Shown here one piece after another: positions 5,922 to 17,160 of a stretch of 17,160 nucleotides of DNA. Position 1 is the stretch's first letter; the number at the start of each line of letters is the position of its first letter. The position numbers and the translations under genes were made by a program. The DNA is from Willaertia magna (taxonomy: Eukaryota; Heterolobosea; Eutetramitea; Acrasida; Naegleriidae): NCBI GenBank assembly GCA_902984215.1, contig CADWAF010004328.1, forward strand, positions 1 to 17,160. Direction: 5' to 3'. The notes under the pieces were generated by a model. It was given only the letters and a program-made list of their open reading frames with translations. It was not told the origin of the DNA and searched no databases.

Positions 5922-6183
5922 AGATAATAAATCCTTGGTTTTTTTCCAAGTTCGTAATAGTGTAGAATCAAATGCAATAAAATATTATTTCAATGGTGAA
6001 TTAGTTTATAAGTATGATAATATTTTAAGAGGAGTGGATGTGGTAAATGAGGCTGGACACAGGTTATATTTTGCTGTGGGTATAGAACAAACAAATGAAA
6101 ATGTTAATAATACAGTAGTTATTGGATCTTCTAAAAAGTTGGATACCACTAATTTTAGAAAATATAATTGTGAAATTCAATAA
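5922..6183 (+). pseudogene. Orphan SPRY/B30.2-like C-terminal fragment
   Basis: An open frame begins just after TAG 5919-5921, which forms a good splice acceptor (TTTCTCTTTGTAG), and ends at TAA 6181-6183. Its sequence has the SPRY pattern: IKYYFNGELVYKYDNI, then HRLYFAVGIEQ, then VVIG. That matches the F/Y-x-x-NG-x-L strand and the Y/F-F-A-V-G-I strand near the end of SPRY domains, which bind proteins. There is no ATG near the start, and no upstream exon is evident, because the minus-strand F-box-like gene lies immediately to the left. It may be the last exon of a gene with a tiny or distant first exon, or a truncated duplicate. Coding character is clear; gene status is not. Confidence 0.5.
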
Positions 6184-6316
6184 TATGTTTTAGTTAATAC
6201 TTTACAATTGTTTGTATTTAAATTAAATAACAAAGTAAATTAAATTTTTTTTAAACTTTTGAGTAATTCTGGCGCCCTTTTTTTCCGTTGATTTCAAAAA
6301 ATTTGAAAAATAAAAA
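6184..6316 (+). promoter_or_regulatory. Short upstream region of the 54-residue gene, with a GGCGCC palindrome
   Basis: This gap separates the SPRY-like fragment from the next ATG. In otherwise very AT-rich DNA it holds TTCTGGCGCCC (GGCGCC at 6271-6276), about 40 bp upstream of the ATG at 6317. The core resembles an E2F-type GGCGC site, which would suit cell-cycle control, but this is inferred from a single motif. A T-run and an A-rich leader follow. Confidence 0.3.
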
Positions 6317-6481
6317 ATGCAACCAAATGATGATTATGAATTAACCCTAGAAGAGTATTTGCGAAAATATACTGAAAAACAAATTCAAAAAATCAATGAA
6401 CGTACTGAAGAATTAATAAATCAATTACGAAAGGAAGGAAAAGAAAAACAAGAAGAAATCAAACAAATTCTAAATGAATAA
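6317..6481 (+). CDS. Small 54-residue coiled-coil protein, unknown function
   Basis: ATG 6317-6319 lies in an A-rich context and the frame ends at TAA 6479-6481. The product starts MQPNDDYELTLEEYL and continues as a highly charged helix rich in Lys, Glu and Gln with hydrophobic residues in heptad-like spacing (EELINQLRKE, EEIKQILNE). No signal peptide or membrane segment is seen. It looks like a small coiled-coil subunit of a larger complex, but I do not recognise the family. It ends only 29 bp from the convergent histone gene. Coding is supported by the clean ATG, the E/K/Q codon bias and the unusual GC-containing promoter. Confidence 0.6.
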   Translation: MQPNDDYELTLEEYLRKYTEKQIQKINERTEELINQLRKEGKEKQEEIKQILNE

Positions 6482-6510: not shown

Positions 6511-7494
6511 CTAAACAAATCTATTCTTTCCAGATTGCAGCCTAATTGCCAAGTGAATATCTCTATCCATCAAGGTAACTCTTTTTGCATGTAATGTACA
6601 AAGGTAAGCATCATTAAAAACTGAAATTAAATAACTTTCTGCAGCTTCATGTAAATCGTCTACTGCACTTACTCGTATTCTATAATTTTCTTTTAACACT
6701 TCACATAGAATATGTTTAATAAACCTTCTAAAAGGTGCCTTTGGAATTAGCTTATCCCCACTCTTTTGATACTTCCTTACTTCATCTAAATACTTGTAAG
6801 TATTTCTAGGTCTTCTTGGAGTACCATTATTTGTAGTTCTTGTCGCAGTGGTTGTAGTAGTTGTGGTAGCAGCAGTTGTAGAAGATGAAGCCCGATTTTT
6901 ATTTGCATTAGACGACCTATAAAGCTTTCTCGATCTTGTACCGCTAGTAGATTTTCTAGCTGTACCCTTTTCATAATAATCATCTGCTTCTCTTTGTTCT
7001 ATCGCTGTTGGTGGAGGAAGATTTGTTGGGGGAGGGATATTTACATTGTTATTGTTAGTATTGGGTAAATTTTCTATTGTTTCTTCTTCTTCCATTCTAT
7101 TTGGAATATCAATTGGTGGGCTAGTTACTTGTTGTTGTTCTTCTAATGGGTTTTGCGGAAGGATGGGTGAAGGAGTATCATCGAAAGGAGGTCTTATGTT
7201 GAAAGAAGTATCTTGGGTAATGTTAGGAGGAGATGGAGATAGTGAAGGTTGTTCTTCGTTCGGTTTCTGTTTCTTTGATGCATTCATCATTTCTTGGGGA
7301 TCGAAAGTGTCACTTTCCCTACTATAGACATTACTAGTAGTTTCACCAATTATATTTAATTGTTGCGATCCTCCGAGTGTAGTTTCTCCCACTTCTTCGT
7401 TTTCACTTTCCGAAGAAGAAGATGAAGAAGAAGGAGAAGGCAGATTTTGCCTCATTGAAATTTGTGTAGATTTCTTACTTCTGAATCTTCTCAT
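6511..7494 (-). CDS. Divergent histone H3 variant with a long N-terminal tail (candidate centromeric H3)
   Basis: This is a 327-residue protein. Residues about 232-327 form a histone H3 fold: DEVRKYQKSGDKLIPKAPFR matches the alpha-N region of H3 ([20 protein letters not shown]), followed by AVDDLHEAAESYL (alpha-2) and LCTLHAKRVTLMDRDIHLA (loop 2/alpha-3). The fold is far more divergent than canonical H3, and it is preceded by a disordered tail of about 230 residues rich in Ser, Pro, Asn and Thr, with a poly-Thr run near 209-217. Both points suggest a CENP-A-like protein that marks centromeres. Against that, loop 1 appears to be the same length as in ordinary H3, without the small expansion common in CENP-A. 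The tail contains GTARKSTSGTRSRKL (177-191), closely matching the K9 region of canonical H3. ATG is at 7492-7494 and TAA at 6511-6513. The gene is divergent from the actin-related gene. Confidence 0.85.
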   Translation of the reverse strand: MRRFRSKKSTQISMRQNLPSPSSSSSSSESENEEVGETTLGGSQQLNIIGETTSNVYSRESDTFDPQEMMNASKKQKPNEEQPSLSPSPPNITQDTSFNIRPPFDDTPSPILPQNPLEEQQQVTSPPIDIPNRMEEEETIENLPNTNNNNVNIPPPTNLPPPTAIEQREADDYYEKGTARKSTSGTRSRKLYRSSNANKNRASSSTTAATTTTTTTATRTTNNGTPRRPRNTYKYLDEVRKYQKSGDKLIPKAPFRRFIKHILCEVLKENYRIRVSAVDDLHEAAESYLISVFNDAYLCTLHAKRVTLMDRDIHLAIRLQSGKNRFV

Positions 7495-7579: not shown

Positions 7580-8761
7580 ATGTCTGAAGAAGAGGAAGCA
7601 CCGTGTTTAGTGGTTGATATTGGAACTAGTTTAATTAAAGCTGGATTTGCAGGAGATGATGTAGCACGTTTTGTTTTTCCATCATTAGTGGTACGACCAA
7701 AAGCTCAGCCAATTTTTATAACACAAAATAAGGATGCTTATGTTGGAGAGGACGCCTTCAATAAAATTAATGGAAGATATGGTGGATATTTTAGAAGATG
7801 TTATCCAACAATATGTGGTGAAATTTCCAATTTTGATGATTTTGAGAAAATATTACACTCTACATTTTACAATGAATTAAGAGCTTGTCCAGATAAAGTT
7901 TTATTATGTGAAAATCCATTTTGTAATGATAGAGAGAAATTAGCAGAGATGATGTTTGAAAAGTTTGATACAAAGGAATTAAGTATTCAACATCGTTCTT
8001 ATTTATCGCTATTGGCAACTGGAAGGACTAGTGGTTGTGTTTTATTTTCTGGAAATAATATAACATATAGTTCATGTTATTATGATTCTAAATTTTGTGG
8101 AAATAAATGTATTTTTAGGGAAAATTATGGTGGGTTGACTATTACAAAGGAGATTGGAAATCAGTTATATAACACGTTATACATAACGAATGACGAGGCC
8201 TTTGAGGAAGTTAAAAAGGGGGTTTGTGTTATTCCTAGCCCAGAAAATAATGAAATTAACGATTGTAATTTTACCACACAATACTCACAAGACTTGCTTA
8301 TCCCTTCATCTTTAAGAAAATTACCTGAATTATTCTTTTTAAAAGCCAACATTTCAAAATATGGACAAATGACAATAGATGAACTGGTATTAGAATCAAT
8401 TTATAAGATAAGAAATAAAAAGATAGAAAAGGAAATATGTGAAAATATTGTGTTGAGTGGTGGAAATACAATGGTTGAAGGATTTTCTAAAAGATTGGAA
8501 AGTAAACTTAAGAAATCTTGTAATTTTAATGTTAAAGTTATTGCAAGTCCAGAAAGACAACAATTAGCTTGGATTGGAGGTTCAATTTTTGGATCTTTGG
8601 CAGAAAATCAAAAATCATTTCTCTCAAAAGAGTTGTACGAAGAATTTGGAAGTTCAATAATTAATAGACAACCCTACAATATTGAGAGTTTACACCTTAA
8701 CAATATTACAAGAGAAATGAAAGGATTTGAAGACATTGATGTAAATTTTAATATTTATTAA
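7580..8761 (+). CDS. Divergent actin-related protein, probably ATPase-defective
   Basis: This 393-residue protein has the actin fold along its whole length. VVDIGTSLIKAGFAGDD (11-27) is phosphate loop 1, ENIVLSGGNTMVEGF (288-302) is the adenosine motif, and SPERQQLAWIGGSIFGSL (323-340) and EEFGSSIINR (354-363) match the C-terminal region of actin. Asp11 of actin is kept (D13). Gln137, Asp154, Asp157 and His161 of actin align with E123, F156, N159 and Y163, so the residues that position catalytic water and metal appear lost. A tail of about 25 residues follows the normal actin C-terminus. Arps of this kind work in chromatin remodelling, dynactin or Arp2/3; I cannot assign a subfamily. The location next to an H3 variant gene hints at, but does not prove, a chromatin role. 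The start is the first ATG (AAAAAATG). Confidence 0.85.
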   Translation: MSEEEEAPCLVVDIGTSLIKAGFAGDDVARFVFPSLVVRPKAQPIFITQNKDAYVGEDAFNKINGRYGGYFRRCYPTICGEISNFDDFEKILHSTFYNELRACPDKVLLCENPFCNDREKLAEMMFEKFDTKELSIQHRSYLSLLATGRTSGCVLFSGNNITYSSCYYDSKFCGNKCIFRENYGGLTITKEIGNQLYNTLYITNDEAFEEVKKGVCVIPSPENNEINDCNFTTQYSQDLLIPSSLRKLPELFFLKANISKYGQMTIDELVLESIYKIRNKKIEKEICENIVLSGGNTMVEGFSKRLESKLKKSCNFNVKVIASPERQQLAWIGGSIFGSLAENQKSFLSKELYEEFGSSIINRQPYNIESLHLNNITREMKGFEDIDVNFNIY

Positions 8762-12226: not shown

Positions 12227-12327
12227 AAACTTTAAAAAAATTTGGATCAAAAGTTTGGAGTTAAGATTTAAAAAGAACAAACTTTAACTTTGTATTTAAA
12301 CTTTATAAAAATAAACATTAAACTTTA
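12227..12327. repeat. Four copies of AAACTTTA within 100 bp
   Basis: AAACTTTA occurs at 12227-12234, 12279-12286, 12298-12305 and 12320-12327, all in the same orientation. On the minus strand this is TAAAGTTT, 160-265 bp upstream of the VIT-vWA start codon. It may be a clustered promoter element. The chance of such AT-rich octamers is not negligible here. Confidence 0.35.
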
Positions 12328-12738
12328 AATTTATCATTAAATAAACACAAATATAAAGAAAACAATAAATTTATTAAAATTACAATACAAATTTACAAAA
12401 TATTATATTTAAATACAAGAAGTTCTTTTATCCACTCTATTCTTCCCACCCTTAAACTATTTACACCATAAATTGAAACACAAACAACTTCACTAACTAA
12501 TTATAGTAAATAACAAGAATTATTGCTTAATAATAATATATGCATAATTAAACTTTTTTAAAGTTATACTAAATGTTTTAGTTAAGAAAAATATTTTATT
12601 AATTATTGTTCTAGTATATAAAAAATATTAAATTTTTAATAATTTAAAAATAATTCTTTTAATAAATGTAATTCTAAATATATTCTAGAAAATAAATAAT
12701 TTTTTTTAAAAATTATTCTTTTTCTAAAACAAACAAAA

Positions 12739-14515
12739 ATGTTTTTACTGTTTTTTAAAATTAATTGTTTATTATTTACTATACTGTATGATAATAGTAA
12801 TATTATTATTATTAATTTTTTAAATTTTTTTTCTTTTTTTTATCCTTTAAATTTAATAAAAGTTTTAATTATTTTTTTATTACTATTTATTATTATATAT
12901 TATAATGATGTTTGTAATATAAATAATATTGATACTAATTGTTATTATATGTAATATAGTAAGGTTTGTAGTAATTTAAAGTATTTAAAATAGTATTAAT
13001 GTTATTTATTATTATATATCATAATAAAATTTATAAGTTTCTTGTATTTTAAAATATTTTATAATTTTATTTAAATTAATTATACTTATTGTTGATATAT
13101 TTTTTTAAAAAAAAATTTGGTTATAATTTAATATAGTTTATGATTAAATAATATTTAAAAAATTATTAAAATACAACTAAATAATGATAATGATATTATT
13201 AATATGTGTTTAAAATATATAAAATAAATATTAAAACAATGTAATTATTAGATAAAGAAAGTAATGATAGATAATTATTGTATTAATAAAAAACTTTTTA
13301 TAATCAATTAGATTGCAATGTTGTTGTATTGTTTAAGTAGTATTGTTGTTGTTATTAAATTAGAGATAAATACTAAATTTTTATTATTTGTATTTTAAGT
13401 GTTATTTAGAATATTGTTGATTAACAATAGATGAATTAAAAATAATTTTTTATTATTTGATCAAACATTAATATTTGATTAAAAAGAAGAATTGACTAGT
13501 TTTTAATTTTTATAAAATAAACACTCACTGAAAAATAGATTTTTTAATATTTAATTATTTTTGTTAAAAATATAAAAAAGTTAAACCAAATTAAAAAAAA
13601 ATAATAACAATAATATTTTTAATAAAATATATTTTTTATTCAATATTTATATAACATTATCTTCTATTATATTCTCATCTCTCGTTACAATTAATAATAA
13701 TTATAATAATAATCTATCACTATTAGTATCATCATATTATTTAATTAATAATATAACTTCACATGGTATTAAAGTTAATAATATTAATGAATAAATAAAT
13801 TATTTATTAAATAAATAATAACAACAATAATAAACAAACATTAACAATTTAAATCTATTAACAGTCACTCATAATAATAATAAAATAGAATATAATAATT
13901 TAATTAATAATAATAATAATAATATATTACCATTAATATCGAAAATAAAGAAAGTATAAAGAATAATTATAATTGTAATGATAATAATTATATTATAATT
14001 GATAAATTAAATAATTATATTATTAATAGAACAATTAATATAGAAAAAGAAAAAATAAATAAAAAAAATTATCAGATTGTTAAAAAAATTGGTGATTTTT
14101 AATTTGAATGTAAATATAGAGATAAAAAATTGAATGAAATTGATATAAATATAAAAGAAATGTTATTATAAGATATATTGATCTATATATATTTTATTAT
14201 TTCTTTAAAAAAAATGAAAAGTATAAAATTTAAAAATTGTTATGAGAATTTAAAGAAAAATAGTTTAAAAAAAAAGTGTTTTATATTAGATTTAATAATA
14301 TATTGCTAATTTTATATAATGTTAATATATAAAGAATATACAATTATATAGTAAATATTATAGGAAAAAATAATGAAGAATATGTTATAAAATATAAATT
14401 AAATATAAAATATATAACATTTAAATATAATTTACATATTTATATTGTAAAAACTACATTTAAATATATACAAGAAACCATTTTTAATCAATAAAACTTT
14501 ATTGTAAAATTTTAA
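12739..14515 (+). pseudogene. Decayed element gene A, with chromodomain-like segments
   Basis: ATG 12739 opens a frame that is free of stops for 71 codons. The same frame stays coding-like to about 13930, although interrupted by about 24 TAA/TAG/TGA codons. It then moves to the frame of 13938 (up to about 14290), and again, at an A-run near 14270, to the frame of 14297, ending at TAA 14513-14515. The frame changes fall in an AAT repeat and an A-run, typical slip sites. G is concentrated at codon position 1 within these frames. Asn-rich runs and a Gln run written as TAA and CAA codons (13816-13833) occur. Two late segments (FECKYRDKKLNEIDI near 14103-14147, and NNEEYVIKYK near 14364-14393) faintly recall chromodomain strands, as found in some integrases. 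The hydrophobic N-terminus suggests membrane helices, but it may only reflect AT-rich codons. Function is unknown. Confidence 0.4.
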
Positions 14516-14538
14516 ATTAATTAATAAAAAAAAATCAC

Positions 14539-14625
14539 AAATACTATATCAACAAACTCACAAACAACAATAAAACACAACCAAATACTATATTAATAAA
14601 CTCTCAAACAATAATAAAATATTAT
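14539..14625 (+). repeat. Imperfect 44-bp tandem duplication whose copies differ mainly by C/T
   Basis: Copy 1 begins AAATACTATATCAACAAACT at 14539 and copy 2 AAATACTATATTAATAAACT at 14583. Over the 44 aligned positions I count nine mismatches, six of them C in copy 1 and T in copy 2, with none the other way. It lies in the gap between relics A and B, so it has probably not been under protein-coding selection. Confidence 0.65.
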
Positions 14626-14685
14626 AATCAATTAAAAACACAAAACATTATTAAGTTTCATATTATTAAAATTTAATTTAACAAA

Positions 14686-15439
14686 ATGTTTTAAAAAAAA
14701 ACTATTTTAAAAAAGTCAAAATATATTTTTTTTTGTTTAAATAAAATTAATGATAGTAGTAGTGATAGTATTAATGATAGTAGTAGTGATAGTATTAATG
14801 ATAGTAGTAGTGAGAATAAATTAAAAAAAATTAATAAAAAAATATTAAAAATATTTAATTTTTATTCTTTATCATTAGTAAAATATAATAATAAATATTA
14901 TATTTCAAGTTTAGATTTTAAATATTTTATTTATAACAACAAAAAATTAGATTTATTTAATAATATTTTTAATAGAATTAGTAAATAAGATAAAGTTAAT
15001 TTATTTTTAAATATAATTAAAAAAATAATATTATTTTTAGTAAAAAAACATAGATTATTTGATATAAAAAAATATAGTATTAACAAATTATATAAAGGAA
15101 TAATGATTATTAAATATAATATATTTATAGATATGTTAAGAAAAAAAATTAAAAAAAAATAAAAATAACAACAAATTAATTTATAAATGTATAAATAATA
15201 TTAAATATTTAATTAAAAATGATTTAAATCTTAAAAATTATAAAAAAGTATTTGATATTGAGAATAGATGATTATTAGTTAAATATGATGAAAAATTTTT
15301 ATTATTAAATATTCAACTGAATAATATATTTGATAAAGAAATTATAGAAATTTAATAAAAATAAAACTTAGATTTATATTGGAAAATTATTTATTTTTTT
15401 AAATATTTATTGAACCACATTAATATTTTGTGTTTTTGA
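14686..15439 (+). pseudogene. Decayed element gene B, with an acidic-serine repeat, unknown function
   Basis: ATG 14686 starts a frame with TAA as its third codon, then a basic stretch and a Ser/Asp repeat (14746-14811). After that comes a Lys/Ile/Asn-rich region that reads smoothly (SLSLVKYNNKYYISSLDF, DIKKYSINKLYKGIMIIKY). A single in-frame TAA lies near 14986. At an A-rich stretch near 15140-15165 the coding character moves one frame on and continues (KKVFDIENR, then a TGA, then LLVKYDEKFLLLNIQLN), ending at TGA 15437-15439 after several TAA codons. No family is recognised. The codon pattern is like that of genes A and C, and the order and strand fit one element. Confidence 0.4.
14746..14811 (+). 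repeat. 24-bp in-frame tandem repeat coding INDSSSDS
   Basis: The unit ATT AAT GAT AGT AGT AGT GAT AGT occurs twice perfectly (14746-14769 and 14770-14793) and a third time for 18 bp before diverging. It keeps the frame of gene B and gives an acidic, serine-rich N-terminal tract. Perfect identity in otherwise decayed sequence suggests recent expansion. Confidence 0.8.
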
Positions 15440-15664
15440 AATATAATATAATTATTTATTTTAAATTTTTAAAATTTTTCATTAAATTTTAGAAATTAAT
15501 TTTTTAAAATTTATATTATAATCCCAAAAACGCAATTTATTAAATTATTTTAATAAAACAATCATTTTATAATTTTATAAAATTTTTTTATTTGTTAATA
15601 AATTTAAATTTTTATTTTGTAATTAATTTTTAATGATTTTTATTTTATTTTATAAATAAATTTA

Positions 15665-16965
15665 ATGTATTTTTTATAAAAAAAAATATCTCTACAACAA
15701 AAAAAAAAGTATCTCTATAATAAAAAAAGTACCTCTACAACAAAAAAAAGTATCTTCATAAAAATTATCATAATAATATAAAACTATTGATTATTTTAAA
15801 TTAATAGAAAAAGTTAATAAAATATAAAATAAATATTTATATTATAAACTATTCATTTATAATGATAGTATTGTTGATTATGATATTTATTTAAAAACTT
15901 ATTTTAAAAAAGATTTTTTATACTTTATAGAATTACAAAATATAGTTATATAATTGTTAGATCAAAAATTGTATATTAATATAATAAATATAAAGATTAT
16001 GATTTTAAATAAAATATATGAATATATATTAATTTTTAATGTTGATTATTTATTAATATTTGTATAAAATTATCAATTAAATGATTTTGTAAATAATTTT
16101 TATAGTAATATTGATTTAAATATAATTAAATTAATATTTATTCTTATAATAATTAATAATAATCATTTTCAATTTTTAATATTTAAGAAAACAAATAATA
16201 AAAATAATATATATTAAAAAAATACTTACAAAAGAAAATATAATAATGATATAATAAAAATTTTTTCAAAAATAATTAACAAATATTATTTAAAAAACAA
16301 TATTAAATTAAAACAATTTAAATATATAAAACTATTAATTCTAAATCAATGTAATAATAAAAGTTGTGGTTGTTATATAATATTTATAATGAAATACTTA
16401 TTTATTTTAAAAAATACAATTAATTTTTATTTATTATCTGCGTATATCAATTTTAAAAAATATTACAATATAGAGATATTATTTTAAAAAAGTTTTAAAT
16501 TATTTTTGTGGTCAAAAATAGTTAAAAGAATTAAACAGTGTGAATTATTTGAAATATGAAGAATTTTTAAAAAGTTTAAAAGAGTTTGTGTTAAAAAATG
16601 ATAAAAGCTTATTAAAGTTTTTAAAAATAAAAACATTAAAATTGTTAATATTAATACATGGTATTTTTTGTTATAAATTGAATAATTTTATAAAACTAAA
16701 ATTATTAAATATTTTTTTTATAAATTTTTATAAAAGAAAAGAATTTGAAAATAATAAATATGTAAAAGATTTATTATTAAAAAATTATAATTTTTATAAA
16801 ATTATTACATTTTTTTTAAAAAATATACTTATTATATTTACAAAAAATATAAAGTTAAAAAAGAAGATATTAGATAATATTAATTTTAATTTAAATTCTA
16901 ATTTATATGTTTTTAAATTATATAATTTATTTGCTTTTTTTAATGATATCATTAAATTAAAATAA
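15665..16965 (+). pseudogene. Decayed element gene C: Ulp1/adenovirus-type (clan CE) cysteine protease
   Basis: ATG 15665 leads into a repeat of a VSLQQKK-type heptapeptide, after which the frame settles (codons starting at multiples of 3) until about 16540. This frame contains NNNHFQFLIF with the catalytic His at 16164-16166, and LNQCNNKSCGCY with Gln at 16347-16349 and Cys at 16365-16367. Gln lies six residues before Cys and His 67 before it, the spacing of Ulp1 family proteases (yeast Ulp1: H514, Q574, C580). The expected Asp, about 17 residues after His, is not seen; a TAA is at +17 and an Asn at +19. TAA interrupts the frame at 15825, 15951, 16065, 16215 and 16485, among others, with a TGA near 16552. 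Near 16540 the coding character moves to the next frame, which is open for 141 codons to TAA 16963-16965. The enzyme would process element proteins or remove ubiquitin-like tags. It is almost surely inactive if the standard code applies. Confidence 0.6.
15686..15770 (+). repeat. Heptapeptide-coding repeat (about 21 bp) with CAA/TAA interchange
   Basis: Units start at 15686 (ATATCTCTACAACAA), 15709 (GTATCTCTATAATAA), 15729 (GTACCTCTACAACAA) and 15750 (GTATCTTCATAAAAA), each followed by an A-run of varying length. Intervals are 23, 20 and 21 bp, so A-run slippage produces a net frame change. At the two codons that are CAA CAA in units 1 and 3, unit 2 has TAA TAA, an exact C-to-T difference. Confidence 0.7.
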
Positions 16966-17160
16966 TTAAATACTGAAATTAAATCATTAAATAATAATAT
17001 TTACTATAAATAACATAAATAACATTGTTTTAAAGAAATTTAAATATTAAAATTTAACAAATCAACTTACAAAACTATTTTTAAAAATCTTAGCAGTTCC
17101 ATAGTTTTTTTAAGAAAAAAAATAAGAGTTTTTTTACAGAAATTTGCAAAATCTATATAA
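16966..17160. other. AT-rich right edge without a recognisable gene
   Basis: Nothing coding is evident. C and G become slightly more frequent after about 17085 (CTTAGCAGTTCCATAG), which might mark the approach of the element's end or another gene. The window is too short to decide. Confidence 0.4.

Follow-up and report, generated by a model that had tools for sequence, protein, structure and literature searches.

Repeat-induced point mutation (RIP), known from fungi, converts C:G to T:A pairs in one direction on both strands of repeats and leaves AT-rich DNA and stop codons behind. It acts in the sexual cycle, needs RID or DIM-2, and in Neurospora prefers CpA sites and hits both copies of a duplicated pair. 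DNA transposons of the CACTA/CMC type have a CACTR terminus, terminal inverted repeats, a target-site duplication, and a transposase. Here we analyze a 17,160-nucleotide stretch of DNA from the heterolobosean amoeba Willaertia magna (contig CADWAF010004328.1 of assembly GCA_902984215.1, hereafter the window), of which a part of about 4.4 kb toward the right end is AT rich and interrupted by stop codons. This region is probably a decayed, multigene DNA transposon together with the copy of a host-fragment mosaic into which it inserted, read in the standard genetic code and eroded by one-way C-to-T decay, for which methylation of cytosines in all contexts followed by deamination is the likeliest route.

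The locus resembles RIP-mutated DNA in that the mosaic, and a copy of the same transposon family on contig C302, have changed almost only from C:G to T:A, on both strands, with AT-rich DNA and stop codons as the outcome; it differs in that a preference for CpA is weak at most, in that the same repeat also has copies that escaped, and in that the host is a discoban amoeba. In the related heterolobosean Naegleria gruberi, the account of cytosine methylation in PMC12344493 has repeat cytosines methylated equally in all four contexts (CX methylation) with DNMT1 enzymes only, and methylated regions carrying H3K9me3 and H3K27me3. The two cases share a DNMT1-type enzyme, repeats as the target, and all four contexts; they differ in that the same account describes methylation, at a very low global level, and no mutational outcome.

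A Host-Fragment Mosaic and a Truncated Transposon

Searches of the organism's own genome were made against the 19.2-Mb assembly of 894 contigs, which are denoted here by C-numbers; the window is the whole of contig C696. Between 12501 and 17000, its guanine-plus-cytosine (GC) content is 9–13% in 500-base bins, beside 20–36% in the five adjoining host open reading frames (ORFs). The initial annotation, made from the window's sequence alone, had rightly singled out this AT-rich stretch but divided it into three consecutive genes (A to C) of one element, a division that gives way to a host-fragment mosaic followed by a truncated transposon (Table 1). "Gene A" is no single gene: its first two thirds (12739–13525) belong to the mosaic and the rest to the transposon. 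The best frame of 12739–13525 contains 16 stops in 262 codons and is not coding-like.

The mosaic has a homolog on C823 that retains 23–27% GC and holds about 620 base pairs (bp) that the window lacks; in the own-genome DNA search, homology spans 12762–13169 and 13167–13524 and then ends. The C823 locus is itself matched piecewise by C243 (96%), C566 (94%), C96, C226, C411, and C394 (78–90%), and others, which makes it a mosaic assembled from host fragments. The C566 match sits inside a large ORF, presumably encoding hybrid-cluster protein. The wider interval C823:9225–10685 is an intergenic mosaic, with pieces of many host loci at 77–96% identity, as if it were captured or filler DNA.

The boundary of the transposon is directly visible against C823. 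At 13526 the window reads CACTG, C425 has the same terminus in a more decayed state, and C823 continues with other sequence; homology to C425 and C872 begins at 13524 and 13531. The break in homology together with CACTG therefore places the transposon end at 13526. C823 represents the insertion-free site for this one side alone, since the contig breaks off before the transposon's other end.

Table 1. Features of the AT-rich region of the window (ORF, open reading frame; C-numbers, contigs of the assembly)
Position	Strand	Feature	Evidence
12501–12761	.	AT-rich DNA preceding the mosaic, source not found	GC profile
12762–13525	+	Hypermutated copy of host-fragment mosaic, undecayed at C823:9290–10628	Own-genome DNA search, alignment
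13168–13268	+	Decayed host-gene fragment, ORF on C566	Own-genome DNA search
13526–17160	+	5′ part of decayed DNA transposon, ended by contig end	Own-genome matches
13526–13531	+	Transposon terminus, starts CACTG	Alignment with C823 and C425
13932–14500	+	Remnant of the transposon's first ORF, with a change of frame near 14136	Relatives C850, C416, C414, C609, C872
14738–15345	+	Remnant of its second ORF ("gene B"), with a change of frame near 15160	Relatives C850, C416, C520, C609, C872, C425, C414
15780–16600	+	Remains of "gene C," first part, Ulp1/C48-like pattern by eye	Relatives C872, C425, C850, weakly C520
16540–17013	+	Continuation in another frame	Relatives C609, C850, C414

One-Way C-to-T Spectra in the Mosaic and Elsewhere in the Genome

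Comparisons are given below as X to Y, meaning the change from copy X to copy Y, and each count gives the C>T and G>A changes out of the G/C sites compared. These changes were also scaled by the A/T swaps between two copies (the swap clock), with C170 to C416, a pair of GC-richer transposon copies, as the yardstick.

Aligning other genomic copies, a step that the initial annotation had proposed, exposed a one-way spectrum in the mosaic. From C823 to the window, 94 of 177 G/C sites within 12769–13524 have changed C>T or G>A (C>T 43/65, G>A 51/112), and these make up 94 of the 110 mismatches; the reverse change is found at 4 of 534 A/T sites, beside four A/T swaps and six C>A or G>T changes. The changed sites were distributed over CpA (49/89), CpT (36/65), CpC (8/20), and CpG (1/2). 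On the swap clock the mosaic stands at 19.9-fold relative to the GC-richer transposon pair, and the copies on C96, C226, C411, and C566 compared with the window run in the same direction at 4.1- to 8.7-fold. The GC-normal mosaic copies on C566, C96, C411, and C394 compared with C823 gave, when pooled, 18/170 with 13 A/T swaps; C226, which is excluded from that pool, gave 7/97 with 22 A/T swaps, and the skew is absent from both.

The same spectrum was observed in a copy of the transposon family elsewhere in the genome. C850 to C302 amounted to 112/161 (C>T 50/71, G>A 62/90; CpA 48/64, CpT 48/74), with a reverse count of 10/735 and 22 A/T swaps, or 7.7-fold on the swap clock. The GC-richer baseline, C170 to C416, which covers another gene at about the same swap distance, amounted to 43/294 with a reverse count of 30/1332 and 41 swaps, and C850 to C520, in the same gene as C302, to 60/182 with 67 swaps in 767. 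Five GC-richer transposon pairs (among C170, C416, C850, C520, and C414; two compared both ways), the yardstick included, lie at 0.6- to 1.0-fold, and the baseline is therefore steady.

A separate repeat family, which neither blastn nor tblastn linked to the transposon, shows this spectrum as well. It has at least 75 matches on 38 contigs, the query's own included (among the best 40 of 442 candidates). From a 26%-GC piece on C604 to C566 the count was 118/193, with 17/616 in reverse (2.4-fold), and two pairs involving AT-rich copies stood at 5.7- and 6.9-fold. Contexts in four AT-rich copies, with C604 sites counted repeatedly, were CpA 138/222, CpC 39/72, CpG 18/28, and CpT 125/244. Across these data a CpA preference is weak at most, and dinucleotide indices devised for RIP gave no clean separation of the AT-rich islands from the better copies.

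A repeat on C566 (positions 5970–6410 of the piece analyzed) recurs at 77–94% identity in the first few hundred bases of C859, C711, C794, C874, C24, and C158, a placement that may be subtelomeric or may simply be where the assembly breaks.

The Transposon and Its Copies

Six coding-like segments between 13932 and 17013 contain 18 stops in 801 codons (2.2%; 13 TAA, 4 TGA, and 1 TAG), against 274 stops in 1597 codons (17.2%) in the other two sense frames; the expectation from base composition alone is 12.8%. The difference between 2.2 and 17.2% leads us to conclude that the six segments were formerly coding. Here the initial annotation was accurate on two counts, the coding-like frames interrupted mostly by TAA and the frame changes near A-runs, which are present in the sequence at about 15.16 and 16.55–16.59 kb. 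"Gene B" opens with a short in-frame tandem repeat, Asn-Asp-Ser-Ser-Ser-Asp-Ser-Ile, at about 14749–14815.

Better copies with long standard-code ORFs occur in the same genome: one on C170 is 611 amino acids (aa) long and free of stops, and those on C850, C416, and C520 carry a few. The C416 copy spans approximately 74960–84314 and has terminal inverted repeats, 401- and 517-bp pieces at 84%, inside 74960–76270 and 83411–84314; by eye, one of its ends reads CACTA and the other CATTG. Its flanks, also judged by eye, do not match as a target-site duplication, and the right end of the window copy lies beyond the contig. The transposon's ORFs include a low-complexity repeat ORF, a match to "gene B," a match to "gene C," and a transposase-like ORF, in which Asp, Cys, and Glu residues are invariant in alignment with C307 and C800. 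A motif resembling Thr-Ser-x-Asn-x-Glu-Val is repeated in low-complexity regions of different transposon ORFs (C850, C416).

The 611-aa transposase-like ORF of C170 matches two W. magna "hypothetical protein" entries at 82–83%, one of which, by eye, is identical to the C416 ORF over a long stretch. A profile search placed relatives in W. magna only (three proteins among the best 7991 candidates). Searches for known families gave no credible match: Pfam returned for the transposon ORFs only weak matches below cut-off (ATP-synt, LETM1, HTH_27, and a CUB model), a PDB profile search of the transposase gave no credible match, and a structure model of it had a predicted local distance difference test (pLDDT) score of 34 and was unusable. 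The remains of "gene C" show, by eye only, a His-Asp-Gln-Cys pattern like that of Ulp1/C48 proteases; the C850 ORF considered for this protease matched no Pfam family, and its PDB matches were at chance level.

The element shares with CACTA/CMC transposons a CACTG or CACTA terminus, long inverted ends (on C416), and a transposase-like ORF carrying the invariant residues noted above, and differs from them in lacking credible Pfam or PDB matches and in the restriction of its relatives to W. magna in that profile search. Because neither database backs a superfamily, we call the transposon CACTA-like as a resemblance only.

Cause of the Decay

In the course of events that we favor, a multigene DNA transposon would have inserted into a copy of the host-fragment mosaic in W. 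magna, and both have decayed. A DNMT1-type enzyme would methylate the cytosines of heterochromatic repeats in every context, with deamination following. One-way C-to-T change, affecting both strands and cytosines in any context, has removed about half the C:G pairs from at least 0.75 kb of the flanking mosaic. Stops would arise from lost Gln and Trp codons plus ordinary drift. Deamination after all-context methylation of the kind reported for Naegleria is the likeliest cause. Near context-free decay that reaches at least 0.75 kb past the transposon end would fit deamination of DNMT1-type methylation. C319 carries a DNMT1-like gene that is divided between ORFs and whose BAH match falls short of the Pfam cut-off; the other PF00145 gene, on C456, looks DNMT2-like by eye.

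Several points weigh against this reading. The place of the ancestor is taken by C823, itself a present-day copy. Most stops in the transposon face neither Gln nor Trp in its relatives. In the window's transposon part, where the swap clock excluded C859, C420, C18, and matches below 130 bits, GC-richer relatives gave 107/212 with 122 A/T swaps in 1085 (1.2-fold) and AT-rich relatives 171/400 with 324 swaps in 3992 (1.3-fold); 12 of 15 transposon stretches lie at 0.6- to 1.8-fold. Among other AT-rich copies, C170 to C609 stands at 0.5-fold, C170 to C425 at 1.0-fold, C850 to C675 at 1.3-fold, and C520 to C675 at 2.2-fold, so AT-rich copies are not all demonstrably hypermutated. The methylation evidence comes from N. 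gruberi rather than Willaertia, and the methylation data in PMC12344493 put global 5-methylcytosine (5mC) there at a very low 0.28%, with few fully methylated sites, which would make it a weak mutator unless concentrated on repeats. According to PMC12695648, Naegleria is depleted in CpG even though its CpG methylation is very low, and 5mC was concluded not to shape base composition substantially.

The initial annotation's proposal of C-to-T and G-to-A decay thus stands firmly for 12769–13524 and for other copies in the genome, and in the window's transposon part meets only a small pooled excess. One-way decay there is indistinguishable from old drift, the relatives having split too long ago to prove it; the remaining 3 of the 15 stretches (C872 at 14264–14542 and 15787–16437, C425 at 13524–13709) reach 3.5- to 5.5-fold. 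The transposon part was likely hypermutated together with its flank.

An active, RIP-like genome defense, one that recognizes repeats and mutates the cytosines in them in a burst, conceivably during a sexual phase not yet described, would account for the one-way loss of G/C sites on both strands (53% in the mosaic, 70% in C302, and 61% from C604 to C566), but we consider it unlikely. Besides a CpA preference that is weak at most, mutation has struck just one member of the C823/C696 pair, and five pairs drawn from C170, C416, C850, C520, and C414 show no excess. The sparing of C823 suggests that mutation depends on lying next to the transposon rather than on duplication, which speaks against classic RIP. 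The own genome yielded only the two PF00145 loci named above, which look DNMT1-like and, by eye only, DNMT2-like, no separate search for a RID-type enzyme having been made. No account of RIP in Heterolobosea appeared among the article titles and abstract openings listed in literature searches.

Mutation of the ordinary AT-biased kind, acting on unconstrained DNA without any special mechanism, is a still poorer candidate for the whole pattern, even though it is enough to explain most of the transposon part of the window, with its pooled 1.2- to 1.3-fold, and also C609 and C425. It does not accommodate the mosaic, where 94 C>T/G>A changes accompany 4 swaps, against 43 and 41 in the GC-richer transposon pair (Fisher P = 7 × 10^-13) and 18 and 13 in the GC-normal mosaic copies (P = 1 × 10^-6), nor C302, with its 112 changes and 22 swaps (P = 5 × 10^-7).

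Stop Codons and the Genetic Code

Neighboring host genes use the standard code, as had been noted from the start: the five host ORFs examined in the window end in ordinary stops (TAA, TGA, TAG, TAA, and TAA) and contain both CAA and CAG. Stop sites of the transposon were compared using 28 of 62 tblastn matches, antisense matches and those outside the six accepted segments and frames having been dropped. For 13 of the 18 stops, one or more relatives supply a counterpart; some relative has Gln at 4 of these 13 and Trp at 1, and the remaining testable stops face Lys, Glu, Gly, Ser, Leu, Ile, Pro, and others. Opposite the 16 stops of the mosaic frame, C823 has eight stops, six TGG, one TTG, and one gap, and no Gln codon. 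The idea that TAA stands where Gln fits was therefore borne out at 4 of the 13 transposon sites and failed at the other 9 and throughout the mosaic. In a count over four decayed copies, with overlapping and some off-frame alignments included, Gln lies opposite stops in 5 of 64 comparisons versus 1.8% of 1570 aligned sense codons, and Trp in 2 of 64 versus 0.1%, an enrichment of both residues such as decay of CAA, CAG, and TGG predicts.

Descent from a genome that reads TAR (TAA or TAG) as Gln, the other possibility raised by the initial annotation, draws on the predominance of TAA and on this Gln enrichment but is largely refuted and merits almost no credence, since recoding predicts Gln at nearly all stop sites and 0 of 16 and 4 of 13 were found, the same transposon has long standard-code ORFs in this genome (611 aa on C170, though the C850, C416, and C520 copies carry a few stops), and the frame changes would be left unexplained.

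Genomic Setting of the AT-Rich Region

At the left edge of the region, GC falls from 23% at 12481–12520 to at most 15% from 12521 on, and a separate stretch of 10–12% lies at 12281–12400. A foreign or organellar AT-rich element was rejected as its source, as copies adjoin host genes and the left part is built of host fragments. Pfam domains scored above cut-off in four of six scanned ORFs of the window (exonuclease, histone, actin, and VIT with DUF2135); scans of the window with Rfam and for transfer RNAs gave no matches. The histone match belongs to an H3-type gene at 6511–7494 (minus strand) with a long low-complexity N-terminal extension, which may, as a guess, be a centromeric or other variant H3. 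Adjoining it at 7580–8761 (plus strand) is an actin-family gene identified by Pfam, perhaps encoding an actin-related protein.

The CpG observed/expected ratio, calculated for the window and for blocks from other contigs, is 0.16–0.64 in genes and repeats alike and 0 in a short mosaic block. Blocks on C859, C420, and C18 have GC contents down to 2–8%, below that of the window. Matches at about 65% to these and other contigs are dominated by A/T swaps and were excluded from the relatives, and the low-stringency BLAST list was treated as compositional noise.

Significance

What is of interest here is that the mosaic, like other repeats, has decayed in one direction; of the two explanations first offered for the stops, decay is right and recoding wrong, and the case warns that stop-rich AT islands can mimic a new genetic code. 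As a tentative and rather doubtful generalization, heterolobosean amoebae may run a context-free, repeat-directed C-to-T mutagenic defense of DNMT1 type that evolved separately from RIP in fungi and leaves transposons and the DNA flanking them as AT-rich islands. Loss of half the cytosines from the repeat DNA of a discoban, in one direction and almost regardless of context, would itself show that DNA methylation or a dedicated system acts as a mutator in a distant group of eukaryotes, with a testable link to CX methylation in Naegleria as described in the methylation account of PMC12344493, and the repeats of Willaertia would be an exception to the conclusion, stated in PMC12695648, that 5mC does not substantially shape the base composition of eukaryotes.

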